A DNA stretch of 64,000 bases, taken from Blastocystis sp. Blastoise. Lineage: Eukaryota; Sar; Bigyra; Opalinata; Blastocystidae. Made by a program: the position numbers and the translations under genes. Positions 44,613 through 52,143 of the stretch are shown in pieces. Within the stretch, counting starts at the first letter, position 1; the number at the start of each line of letters is the position of its first letter. A model generated the notes under the pieces. That model had not been told where the DNA came from. It worked only from the letters and a program-made list of their open reading frames with translations, and did not search any database. The stretch is from contig JBBPEB010000032.1 of NCBI GenBank assembly GCA_039096225.1, forward strand, positions 352,501-416,500, written 5' to 3'.

Positions 44613-45366
44613 ATGTGTGATAATTGGGATAAATATTGCTTACCATCAGATGCTGATGTGGATCTGATTAATCATAATTATAATTTAATTAAACAAAGCT
44701 TTAGTAACGGATTAAAAGAAATTAACTATGAAACTAGTGATAATCTTAAAAGAAAAGTTGATGAAAAGAAACCAGTTCAATCAATGAAATCCACCATGAG
44801 TTTATTCGGAAAGAGAAAGGATGAATTTGTGTATGTTTAGCTATGTTAGTTAATTCATTCTTAGTTTTGTTTTCTTCTTATTTGAGGTATTGTATTAATT
44901 ATTATATTATATAGTGTTCCAGAACATCCTATTGAGAGTCCTATTGATGATTGGACATTTATATTCAAATATAGACTTTATCAGAGTCTTGATCTTTATT
45001 TACAACAAAGTCAACAAACGAATCCATCAGATACTGGAGTTAACTATCGAGTTAAAGTTTTCAAAGATGAAATATCTATGAATATTTCTGTATTTATATA
45101 TTGTTAATTTATTGCTATATTTATATAAATGATTAAAAATAAAAAATATATTTATTTATATATATATTTATATATATATAGGATGTAAAAGATAATTATA
45201 ATACTCAAACTGAAGAAATAATAAAGAAGATTATGACTTGGAGAAATGATAAGAAGAATAAAGTAATACATAATACAGAAAATCCCAAACAATTATGGTC
45301 ATCTCTTATTAATATTATTCAAATTAATGAAGTATATATTAGTATTTATTATTTGTTATTATTATG

Positions 45367-45432
<66 letters not shown>

Positions 45433-47260
45433 GCTTATTATTTATTATTTATTGCTTATTATTATTATTTTCTCATATTTTTTTTACTTGAATTCTGTTT
45501 AATAGTATTCATTTATATATATATATACTTTTTTTAAATATAATTTTTCGAATCAATCTATTATATATAATAAACGATATATATATAGCAAGATCCTGCT
45601 GCATCTATGATGGATTCCACATTTCAATCTCAATATACTTCTATTCTCTCTCAACATGCATCAAATCATATAACAACTTCTTTAGGAACAGATCCCTCTA
45701 TCCAACAATGTCTCCGTACATTCTTTACAAAGATATTTCATGTTTGGAATCAACCGATTAATCCTAATTTATGGCTGAATCAAAAACCAGGAAGTTTCAG
45801 TCATATGGAATATCAAGGCATGCTCCTTCATTCTATAAGCATGTTTATTTGTATATATCGAAAAGTTATTGAAGGATTATATAGCAATAAACAAGAATTA
45901 TTAGGATCATATGGTGTAGATTATAGTATATTATACTCATTATTATACTTATTACTTTGTTTGTTATTTGTTTATTATGTTTATTATTATTATACTTATT
46001 ATACATTATTATAATCATTATTATACTTATACTTATACTTATTATTATACTTATTATACATTATTATAATCATTATTATACTTATTATTATTATTATTTA
46101 TATATATATCTTATGATGCTATTATATATAACTATAGCTGTTACCTTAATTTTGGCTGATGTGAATAATATCTTTGAGCTTCTTATTCAAAAACTAAAAG
46201 AGAAATATTCATTCCTTTCAGATCCTTCTATATGGTTATATATATCACAAATTATACGTGATAATTTATTTATTCAAGCTTATCCCGTTCTTCAAATACC
46301 TTTCTATCTATTTTACTGTATATATATATATATATTTATAATCTTATTATTTTATAATTATTATAATGTGTTTTAATATATAAACATAGATATATATTAT
46401 ACTCTATTTTTAAAATCAATATATTATTTTAAAATAATATCCAATATATATATATAGTAGCTCAAGATAATTCATTTAGTAGTAATATCCAAGCATATTC
46501 TGCTCTAAGCCCGCGTTCTTTTGATGTTCCCGCCAAATTATTTAATGATATGATATTATATGAATTTCCTTCTGATTCTGAAGGATTTACAGATATAGAT
46601 AAAGAATGGATGTATATAGAAACTATATTCCAAGAACCTATTGCTGTGCTGAAACAGATTTCAGCAGATATCAGTCCACTTTCCAGACTTTCTAAACTGA
46701 CTGTTGCTCTATTTATATCCTAATAATAATAATTATATATATATATATTTATTATTAATTAATAATAATTATTAATAATGATCATAGACATCTCTTCTTT
46801 TATTTATATATAAATTTCTTAATTAATTTACCAACTTAACGATCTTGGCCAATCATTTTGTCCTGATGGAACACAATTAACTAGACCTCAATTAGTATCT
46901 CTCATTGTTTTCTGTATTGTTTTGGTATATATATTATGATTATTATTATGTTTATTATTATATTTATTATACGTATAATTATATTTATTATAATATTATT
47001 ATTATATTATTATTATTATATTATTATTATATTATTATATATATAGTCTAACCTTAGTTCTTGTGTATTCCATTCTCAGTTATTAAAAGCATTTATATTC
47101 CCAGATATGCAAGCTTCTCGTTATTGTATATATATATACTCATTTTTATATCAATATCTAATACAATTTCTTATTTCTATTAATAAATTAATGCTTTTTC
47201 TATATAGACCAAGCATTAAGTATGTTTTTTGAAGTAGTAGATTCCGTTTGTAAACAATAA
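44613..47260 (+). CDS. Putative VPS9-like (Rab5 GEF-type) protein containing an AT-AC intron
   Basis: Exons 44613-44830, 44915-45089, 45182-45331, 45589-45925, 46138-46317, 46458-46714, 46832-46924, 47047-47125 and 47208-47260 give 513 residues. The C-terminal part reads PLSRLSKLTVALFQLNDLGQ, then LTRPQLVSLIVFCIVLSNLS, then YYQALSMFFEVVDSVCKQ. This order resembles a VPS9 domain (KLxxL..., a D/LxLLPxLIYxxxxxNPPxLxSN helix, YYLTxLxxAIxFI), which would make it a Rab5-family exchange factor. The match is distant and lacks a clean DxLLP motif. No other domain is recognised; the middle is helical and hydrophobic in patches. Between exons 6 and 7 there is no GT donor or AG acceptor. The frame is restored by an AT-AC intron (see separate entry). 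Confidence 0.55.
45355..45432. repeat. (ATT)n microsatellite in an intron
   Basis: ATT run at 45366-45431 within an intron of the VPS9-like gene. Confidence 0.95.
46715..46831 (+). other. U12-type AT-AC intron
   Basis: The intron starts ATATCCTAAT (minor-spliceosome 5' splice site consensus ATATCCTTT) and ends TTTCTTAATTAATTTAC. The latter contains TTTCTTAAT (consensus branch site TTCCTTAAC/T), with the branch A nine bases before the terminal AC. Joining ...GCTCTATTT to CAACTTAAC... keeps frame 0 through the next exon. Reading on instead hits TAA within two codons, and no GT donor or AG acceptor gives an alternative join. Both splice elements and the frame agree, so this is the best single case in the window. 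Confidence 0.8.
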
Positions 47261-49114: not shown

Positions 49115-49758
49115 TTCTCACTGTTTTATCATTTCTCATGTATTACATATTTCTTTTATGAGTTAATACTGTTTCCTTGCTTATTTTTATAATTAATTTT
49201 ATTACGTATTCTTTTATAGTTTAAAAAACATTTAAATTAGTTATAAATACAAAAAAAAAACTAAAAAACCCCTATAAACATACATTTACTTGATATAATT
49301 TGTTCTATTTAATTATCAAGATGCTTAATCAAATTTATCTTTCTTTTATAGCAGAGAATCATAATGATAAAGATAACAAATAATTACATCATCATTTCTA
49401 ACTATCCATTTCAAATTCTTATTACGAATTTCGTATATGACTTTTAAATTAGAATTGAATAAAAAACCTATTTCATTTTAAAAGCTTTAGAGAAGCGAAT
49501 TAATATATATATATATTTATTTTTCAAAATATTTCGACTCAACAGTTCATGTAATATATTCTTCACAATTAAACAAATATATCATTATTGCAAAATTCTA
49601 TCAATAAATTACGTAAATGGAATATCTCTTCAAAAGAAAAATCTCAGATTGAGATCAACGTTGTATCTGAATCCAAGACACAATTAATTTCTCTTTTTAT
49701 ATCTGACAAAGTATTTTATTGTTTATTTGTTTTGTTGTTGTTCGTATATCCATATTCA
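49115..49758. other. Intergenic DNA before the rhamnosidase-like gene
   Basis: AT-rich spacer. The frame of the following gene stays open back to 49588 with an earlier ATG, but that extension is poorly coding-like and places the signal peptide internally, so it is treated as 5' leader. Confidence 0.5.
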
Positions 49759-52143
49759 ATGTTTAGATTGAATATATTATTGATACTTTTCACATTAACA
49801 ATATATGTTTCTGCTTCAAGCGACATATATGAAGAATTTCCTACAAATTCAACTGCTCAATGGATTTGGACTGAAGAAAATAAAGTTTCTGGACGCTGGG
49901 TAGCATTTAGAAAGATATTTATGAATGACTCTCCATTTGATACGTATATAATGTCAATTGCTGTTGATTCCAAGTACTGGTTATGGATTAATGATAAATT
50001 AGTTGTTTACGAAGGAGGTATGAAACGTGGTCCTAATCGTAATGATGGTTTCTATGATTCTATTGATATAACGTCTTCCATTCAACCAGGAAAAAATCTG
50101 TTTAGTATATTAGTTTGGTACTTTGGTCGATCCTCTTCTTCCCATGTATCTAGTGGTCAATCAGGTCTTATTTTCACTTTAAATGATGACATTCTTGTTA
50201 GTGATAACACTTGGAAAGTAATGCCAATGGAAGCTTATCAAGATGATGTTATTAATCCTAGTGTATTATTATCAGAACCAAATGTATTCTATAATGCTTC
50301 TAGAGCCATAGAGAATTGGCAATCAGTTGATTTTATAGATGATCAATGGCCTAATGCTAAAGAATATGGTGGCTATCCTTGTCAACCATGGAATCAGCTT
50401 TGGAAACACAATATACCACAATGGTATATTGGTCCAATTATAGAAAAAACTGGTTCTGAAATACTTTTCATAAAGAATATGACTAAAGAAGAAATAAAAA
50501 CTGAATATGTAATGGATGTTGATGAAGATTATGTTCATTATATGATTCACTTACCTAGAAATATTCAATATACACCTTATATTCATGTAATTAGTTCATC
50601 AAATAAAGTTTTGTTTTTAGATCCAGAAATCAAGAAGATTACTATTGAAGTAACTCATTCAGCAAAATATATAACAAAAGAGGGTGATCAAAAATATGAA
50701 TCCTTAGGGTGGTTGAATGGTCAAACGGCACATTTTATTGTTCCTCAATCAATTCAAATTGTTTCATTTGGTTATCGTGAATCTCGTTATAATAGTGACT
50801 TCTCAGGTACTTTTGAATGTAATGATCTATTCTATAATCAATTATGGGAAAAATCACGTAATTCATTGATTGTAACAGTTCGTGATAATTTTATGGATTG
50901 TCCTGATCGAGAACGTACTCATTGGACAGGAGACCAAGTCATTGAATCTAGAATGGCTTTCTATGTAACTGATCCTTCTTTATATCCTTTGATACGTAAA
51001 GGTATATTAATCACTCAAGATTGGTCAAATGAAGATCATGTTATACCAACTGTAGCACCATCACCAAATTGGATTGAATTACCTGCTCAATCATTAGCTG
51101 GAATATATGGTGCTTATCTATATACATATTATACAAAAGATTTATCTGTTTTAAAACATGGATATATAGTCTATAAAGGTTATGTATTAAATCAATTTAA
51201 TATGTCTTCTAATGGTCTTATTGAATATAGACATGGACAATGGGATTGGATAGATTGGGGTGATCATATAGACAGTTATCTTGCTCAAACAGCTTGGTAT
51301 GCATATATACTTCAATTTATGATTAAAATATGTATATTAATACAGAATGAAGAAGATATAGTATTATATCAACAACGAGTTGATTCTATACAAATACATT
51401 TCCATGATTATTTCTGGAATAATGCATTAAAAGCGTATAAATCTCCTGATTATAATGATGAAGTAGATGAAAGAGGCAATGCATTAGCTATTATTGCAAA
51501 TCTTGTTCCTAATAATGTTAAAGATAGTATTTTACATTTTATATATACTATGAAACATTCAAGTCCGTATATGGAAAATTATGTTTTAGAATCTTTATTA
51601 CAAAATGGATATATAGATGAAGTATTAGAAAGAATGAAAGATAGATATACAGAAATGGTATCTTTTGATTATAGTACATTATGGGAATTTTGGACCAAAG
51701 AGACAGGTACTTTAAATCATGGCTGGTCAGGAGGAAGTGTATACCTATTTCCTATGTATATAGCAGGAGTAAAACCTACTCGTATGGGATATGATTCTTA
51801 TGATATTAAACCTAATCTTGGATCGTTAACAAAAGTTAATAGTCGTATTCACACTATTAAAGGTGTAATAACTATAAATATTAATAAACAAATAATAAAT
51901 AATAATGAAACTGAAAGTATTTTAATTGAGTTGAAATCTATTCCTGATTCTTTAGCTACTTTATATTTAAAATCAAATAAATATACATTACTTAAAATAA
52001 ATAATATTTCTCTTCAATTAGTCAATTATACTCCTGAAGAACTCTCTGAATTCGAAAAGAATACTTCTACAGCTATTACTACTAATGATGGATATATTCT
52101 CATTACTATGAATAAACTTGAATATACTATTGCAGCTCAATAA
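49759..52143 (+). CDS. Secreted alpha-L-rhamnosidase-like glycosidase (GH78), intronless
   Basis: Predicted to remove terminal alpha-L-rhamnose from plant pectin or glycosides. A single exon encodes 794 residues. The start at 49759 gives the signal peptide MFRLNILLILFTLTIYVSAS; an ATG 57 codons upstream is in frame but less likely. An N-terminal beta-sandwich region (WIWTEENKVSGRWVAFRKIF, YWLWINDKLV) is typical of GH78. The catalytic (alpha/alpha)6 domain has MDCPDRERTHWTGDQ, matching the GH78 signature DCPQRxExxxWxGD with its acidic catalytic residues, then GTLNHGWSGGSVYLFPMYI and a beta-sandwich tail (GYDSYDIKPNLGS). Total length is normal for compact GH78. The lack of any intron contrasts with every long neighbour and is compatible with acquisition from bacteria, though native intronless genes also exist. 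Confidence 0.85.
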   Translation: MFRLNILLILFTLTIYVSASSDIYEEFPTNSTAQWIWTEENKVSGRWVAFRKIFMNDSPFDTYIMSIAVDSKYWLWINDKLVVYEGGMKRGPNRNDGFYDSIDITSSIQPGKNLFSILVWYFGRSSSSHVSSGQSGLIFTLNDDILVSDNTWKVMPMEAYQDDVINPSVLLSEPNVFYNASRAIENWQSVDFIDDQWPNAKEYGGYPCQPWNQLWKHNIPQWYIGPIIEKTGSEILFIKNMTKEEIKTEYVMDVDEDYVHYMIHLPRNIQYTPYIHVISSSNKVLFLDPEIKKITIEVTHSAKYITKEGDQKYESLGWLNGQTAHFIVPQSIQIVSFGYRESRYNSDFSGTFECNDLFYNQLWEKSRNSLIVTVRDNFMDCPDRERTHWTGDQVIESRMAFYVTDPSLYPLIRKGILITQDWSNEDHVIPTVAPSPNWIELPAQSLAGIYGAYLYTYYTKDLSVLKHGYIVYKGYVLNQFNMSSNGLIEYRHGQWDWIDWGDHIDSYLAQTAWYAYILQFMIKICILIQNEEDIVLYQQRVDSIQIHFHDYFWNNALKAYKSPDYNDEVDERGNALAIIANLVPNNVKDSILHFIYTMKHSSPYMENYVLESLLQNGYIDEVLERMKDRYTEMVSFDYSTLWEFWTKETGTLNHGWSGGSVYLFPMYIAGVKPTRMGYDSYDIKPNLGSLTKVNSRIHTIKGVITININKQIINNNETESILIELKSIPDSLATLYLKSNKYTLLKINNISLQLVNYTPEELSEFEKNTSTAITTNDGYILITMNKLEYTIAAQ

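Follow-up and report, generated by a model that had tools for sequence, protein, structure and literature searches.

Evidence for a U12-type AT-AC intron in Blastocystis sp. Blastoise and for minor-spliceosome RNA genes in its genome

Introduction

Minor (U12-type) introns of Blastocystis have been described before, among others in a pan-eukaryotic survey of 2023 whose authors are reportedly Larue and Roy. In Blastocystis ST1 that survey counts 253 minor introns, 196 of which are AT-AC and 49% of which lie in phase 0, with a median length of 39 bp (figures as in the sections of PMC10639083 cited here). In the parts of their paper cited here, Gentekaki et al. (2017) counted 346 U12-type introns, spread over 319 ST1 genes and typically with AT-AC borders, and reported the full set of four minor snRNAs along with seven U12-specific proteins; U12-type introns and components were identifiable in ST7 too (PMC5608401). 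GT-AG is the commoner U12 subtype in general, according to the review PMC3584512, whereas the intron described below is AT-AC.

Here, we report an intron at 46715-46831 of a window of 64,000 nucleotides (the whole stretch of DNA analyzed). A preliminary description had remarked that a U12-type AT-AC intron at this place would be notable in a fungal host. An identical NCBI protein and its taxonomy identify the organism as the stramenopile Blastocystis sp. Blastoise (Opalinata), and the surprise falls away with the fungus; the U12-type reading is upheld by the splice signals, the identical public protein and the minor snRNA genes. Because U12-type introns and their machinery are already published for Blastocystis, the intron is best regarded as real and mostly expected for the genus, and its AT-AC borders are those typical of ST1 and ST7, which belong to the same genus (PMC5608401, cited sections). 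With it, a minor-class intron is confirmed for another Blastocystis lineage, a very AT-rich one with a G+C content of ∼23% (window) against 39.6 to 54.6% in ST1, ST4, and ST7 and a genome of 33.3 Mb against 12.9 to 18.8 Mb (PMC5608401, cited sections). At 117 nt, it is also a long intron for a genus in which the intron-length mode is 30 bp (ST1, ST4, and ST7; PMC5608401, cited sections).

Materials and methods

Frame-keeping joins were scanned by combining donors at 46560-46723 with acceptors at 46740-46924. The genome was searched with a composite pattern (ATATCCTT, 40 to 70 or 70 to 100 bases, CCTTAAY, 6 to 14 bases, AC), with the reversed pattern as control. Fifty-nine loci (L021 to L079) yielded 52 distinct candidates (50 under a fixed acceptor rule); four locus-less places of the 40- to 70-base search were left out. 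Rfam models were run against the 33.33-Mb genome (34 contigs), with 14 prokaryote genomes as controls and a loose limit of E 10.

Results and discussion

The intron (46715-46831, forward strand, 117 nt, phase 0) lies between exons at 46458-46714 and 46832-46924 (forward strand, gene model). The coding sequence is open up to ...GTTGCTCTATTT (46714) and resumes with CAACTTAACGATCTTGG at 46832, where the protein reading goes on in frame; read unspliced, the frame runs into TAA at 46721-46723. The ends of the intron are ATATCCTAAT...TTTCTTAATTAATTTAC. Its 5′ splice site (46715-46721, forward strand) is ATATCCT, followed by AAT, so that positions 1 to 7 fit RTATCCTT and position 8 is A, where the genome-wide candidates described below mostly continue in T. 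The branch word TTTCTTAAT (46815-46823, forward strand) is near TTCCTTAAY, with T in place of a consensus C; set by eye against GTAAGGAA of the U12 gene, all of its bases but the bulged A can pair, two of them as G-U. The second A of this word (46822) stands 9 nt before the last C (46831) of the 3′ splice site TAC (46829-46831, forward strand), and 9 nt is also the commonest distance among the 40 open genome-wide candidates. Counted in our own way, with the second A and the last base as end points, the Blastoise mode is thus 9, against an optimum of 11 to 13 nt given in the review (PMC3584512). Since its donor leaves ATATCCTT at position 8 and its branch word has T for C, the intron fits the pattern less well than the candidates of the genome count do. 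Donor, branch word, short branch-to-end distance, and AT-AC ends are all present, as are minor snRNA genes in the genome; human U12-type introns likewise show the donor, the branch word, and a short distance to the 3′ end (PMC3584512, cited sections). The preliminary description had read the junction in the same way, with a donor, branch word, and terminal AC of U12 type, a branch-to-acceptor distance of about 9, a join in phase 0, and a TAA on read-through, and on all these points the sequence, the open join, and the public protein agree with it.

The host gene (44613-47260, forward strand) has nine exons and eight introns and encodes 513 aa. Its spliced model is identical to NCBI WA158_005254 (hypothetical protein, Blastocystis sp. 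Blastoise) over 513/513 residues (100% identity), AT-AC join included, which we take as strong support for the join and not as independent proof. In a search of ∼5.8 billion proteins, only one of 4,092 candidates was significant, namely, WA158_005254 itself. This want of relatives would suit an assembly or gene-model artefact, that is, a pseudogene locus or a forced join, but the nine exons join stop-free into 513 codons and the same AT-AC intron type recurs in conserved genes, and we regard an artefact as extremely improbable.

Seven introns of the host gene are GT-AG and one is AT-AC. The earlier statement that the other clear introns are GT-AG holds for seven of seven in the host gene, which is what our check covered. 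These GT-AG introns (between 44831 and 47207 of the window) measure 82 to 257 nt, all end in TATAG, and are far longer than the 30-bp mode of ST1, ST4, and ST7 (PMC5608401, cited sections).

We are nearly certain that 46715-46831 is a U12-type AT-AC spliceosomal intron, and we propose that it is removed by the minor spliceosome. This reading draws on the splice signals, the open join, the join in the public protein, the minor snRNA genes, and similar introns in conserved genes. That the minor snRNAs of Blastoise process this intron in vivo is our inference, and the order of minor splicing steps is taken from other organisms (review PMC3584512, cited sections). U11 would bind the ATATCCT donor by base pairing, and U12 would do so at the branch word TTTCTTAAT, where one A stays bulged. 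The U4atac/U6atac.U5 particle would join next, and U6atac would take the place of U11 at the donor. Excision between 46714 and 46832 would then join the F and Q codons in phase 0. The major spliceosome could also excise a U2-type intron with these ends, since AT-AC ends are not confined to the U12 class (PMC3584512, cited sections). Such an origin is very improbable here, however, because the donor and branch word that define the U12 class (PMC3584512, cited sections) are both in the intron and the minor snRNAs are encoded in the genome.

The join scan returned two frame-keeping GT-AG joins (46612-46884 and 46674-46895), one GC-AG join, and 45 AT-AC pairs with an open frame. AT-AC ends are therefore of little weight by themselves; by eye, 46715 is the only donor among these pairs that starts with ATATCC. 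Either GT-AG join might represent an ordinary U2-type intron, spliced by the major spliceosome, beside which the AT-AC signals would have arisen by chance: the frame is open in both, and the donor GTATATAG of 46612-46884 resembles the other donors of the host gene. These joins would, however, delete 52 and 35 further codons, respectively, leave no VPS9 match, and contradict the public protein, and we give them only a very slight chance. An alternative AC for the U12-type intron, at 46840, keeps the frame and gives a slightly better VPS9 score; its distance from the branch A is 18 nt, and the public protein does not use it.

A donor, a branch word, and an AC at the right distance recurred in 21 of 5,000 dinucleotide shuffles of 46685-46861, counted irrespective of whether the join was open. 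A looser composite run over the whole window found five places on the forward strand and none on the reverse strand, against two and one in the reversed sequence, and the motif alone is therefore inconclusive. The case for the U12-type intron is carried by the open join, the public protein, and the genome-wide evidence.

The host gene had been called VPS9-like, a label for which part of the protein gives a weak match and the whole protein does not. A Pfam scan of all 513 aa yielded no convincing match, with VPS9 absent at E ≤1 and the unrelated NUP160 at E 0.071. When the last 143 residues were scanned, VPS9 (PF02204) was the sole family listed (14.1 bits, E 0.064), matching residues 48 to 126 of that piece and so spanning the AT-AC join at residue 69; the curated Pfam cut-off of 27 was not reached. 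With the alternative acceptor at 46840, the match rose to 16.2 bits (E 0.014), also below the cut-off. Pfam gave no VPS9 match for either GT-AG join variant or for the pre-intron exon read on to its stop, and one of the GT-AG variants had DUF5506 at E 0.2. Solved structures searched by sequence with the host protein gave three matches at E 2 to 2.1, and an AlphaFold single-sequence model (mean pLDDT, 37.1) was too poor for a fold search. Judged from these sequence matches, a VPS9-like host gene is possible and not established.

Across the genome, the composite AT-AC pattern matched 34 places with 40 to 70 bases (control, 6) and 30 places with 70 to 100 bases (control, 10); the totals of 64 and 16 count some places twice, as they include overlapping places that offer a choice of two AC ends, and others that both searches returned. 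The GT-AG equivalent, run with 40 to 70 bases only, had one match, and its control had one. For this one donor/branch pattern and one spacing range, the AT-AC bias looks near-total and may be new; it also looks stronger than in ST1 (196/253) and contrasts with human minor introns, ∼26% of which are AT-AC (PMC10639083, cited sections). A loose donor (ATATC) combined with TCCTTAAY showed no excess (114 against 142 in the control), and many of its listed matches were copies of two repeated elements. A donor-only pattern (4,776 against 4,277 in the control) was discarded as too unspecific.

A join with 20 or more open codons on each side was found for 40 of the 52 candidates and for 44% of 709 control ATAT/AC joins at the same loci, which makes this a weak test. 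The 40 open candidates are 64 to 127 nt long, a span that follows from the search patterns, which covered that spacing only, against the ST1 median of 39 bp (PMC10639083, cited sections). Their branch-to-end distance has its mode at 9, and 23/40 are in phase 0, the phase having been chosen by openness, compared with 49% in ST1 (PMC10639083, cited sections). When a join had to be open and the unspliced reading closed, the candidates passed at 34/50 against 153/376 of the control joins (15 codons), 31/50 against 133/389 (20 codons), and 20/50 against 54/380 (30 codons).

Nine joined candidates, picked by eye as conserved-looking or informative from 30 joins of 28 candidate introns, were trimmed for Pfam; in seven of the nine, which is not a general rate, a Pfam domain runs across the join (LSM, NAGLU, mitochondrial carrier, Helicase_C_2, SNF2, and two amino-acid transporters). 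Of the other two, the ninth is without a Pfam match, and the family matched by the sixth stops short of the join. The sixth, a mitochondrial L15 candidate, aligns to a fungal homologue with 58% identity over 115 columns and a single gap, which adjoins the join; an identical Blastoise protein was not among the best 120 of its 7,975 matches.

The preliminary description had proposed a search for minor snRNA genes, which placed U6atac on contig C21, the one on which the window also lies (63.8 bits; Rfam cut-off, 33), and U11 on contig C4 (62.9 bits; cut-off, 39) above their cut-offs. U12 on contig C24 (46.8 bits, E 6.1e-7) and a U4atac candidate on contig C8 (29.7 bits, E 0.045) fell below theirs (53 for each); the upstream element described below supports both, and pairing with U6atac also supports U4atac. 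Over its first 62 letters, the U4atac candidate forms a duplex with U6atac of −32.7 kcal/mol, a value reached by 0 of 1,000 letter shuffles (mean, −18.7; s.d., 3.8), and its first 13 letters pair unbroken. At E 10, the control genomes were matched by U6atac in 11/14, U11 in 3/14, U12 in 7/14, and U4atac in 11/14 cases, none above the cut-off. The search for U11/U12-specific proteins covered one of them, PDCD7 (U11-59K), and gave a C-terminal match just below its cut-off of 27 (25.3 bits, E 1.8e-4), and 0/14 control genomes matched. A second, weaker U6atac match on contig C21 proved to be the ordinary U6 gene.

The U6atac gene (C21:544821-544937; L009 1501-1617, reverse strand within L009) has AGCCGA for AAAGGA in its donor-pairing segment in the Rfam alignment (GAGCCGAGAGAAGG against the consensus GAAAGGAGAGAAGG), a difference from the human system. 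As GAGAGAAGGTTNGCA has a single exact match in the genome, a second copy with the same core is not seen there; a search for further U6atac genes in viral contigs gave 48 contexts, none of which passed a simple downstream filter. In a CHO-cell assay, U6atac G14 and G15 pair with donor C5 and C6, and a change of C5/C6 is rescued by the matching U6atac G14/G15 change plus a U11 change (PMC4980772, cited sections). In our alignment, G15 is kept and positions 13 and 14 are C, which leaves donor C6 and U7 unable to pair in the usual register. The candidate introns, a set selected for that donor, keep ATATCCTT; in contrast to the CHO assay, position 14 is C here and the donors are still CC. We found no Blastocystis U6atac sequence in the text of PMC10639083 or PMC5608401, as far as the sections cited here extend, and the AGCCGA change may be new, to judge by the gene sequence. 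It is conceivable, though less likely than not, that the minor spliceosome of Blastoise is almost AT-AC-only and that its U6atac AGCCGA is unpaired with +6/+7 of ATATCCTT; donor recognition would then depend more on U11 and on proteins than in animals. If the change is real and used, the need of a minor spliceosome for U6atac-donor pairing becomes testable, and this possible change is the part most worth specialist attention.

The element ACTTCTAATCANNNTGT stands upstream of all four minor snRNA genes, starting 58 to 65 bases before the RNA, on the contigs of U6atac (C21:544986-545002), U12 (C24:844667-844683), U11 (C4:1684337-1684353), and U4atac (C8:151212-151228). A pattern search of the genome found it 19 times and the reversed pattern 0 times. 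Eight of the 15 other places were examined and comprised two U1 genes, two U2 genes, one U5 gene, and three copies of an AT-rich family. The element is thus common to the U1, U2, U5, U11, U12, U4atac, and U6atac genes, ∼60 bases upstream (including L080, L081, and L083 to L085), and the U6 gene has a near version with one extra T. Literature searches on promoters of Blastocystis snRNA genes found no report.

Ten copies of the AT-rich family, with membership judged by a shared word, carry ACTTCTAATCANNNTGT, eight on contig C15 and two on contig C28; the three examined (L082, L086, and L087) matched no Rfam family over its cut-off. The word ATTAATTTAATTTT, or one similar by eye, follows the U1, U5, and U12 genes and, less closely, the U11 gene (L080, L084, L085, L016, and L019), and is perhaps a 3′-end signal.

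The polyadenylation motif TGTTTGTT occurred 37 times, against 35 for the reversed word, in the window together with loci L001 to L087 (310,200 bases, partly overlapping). The motif is thus not enriched; it stands at ∼1 per 8.4 kb, compared with a density in ST1, ST4, and ST7 of ∼1 per 3 kb (PMC5608401, cited sections). In Blastoise, polyadenylation may seldom create stop codons, or another motif may be used.

On the forward strand of the window, 49573-52143 is a long open frame (856 codons, stop to stop); its portion from 49750 onward has a match to a bacterial-type alpha-L-rhamnosidase domain (PF17389, E 1.4e-26).
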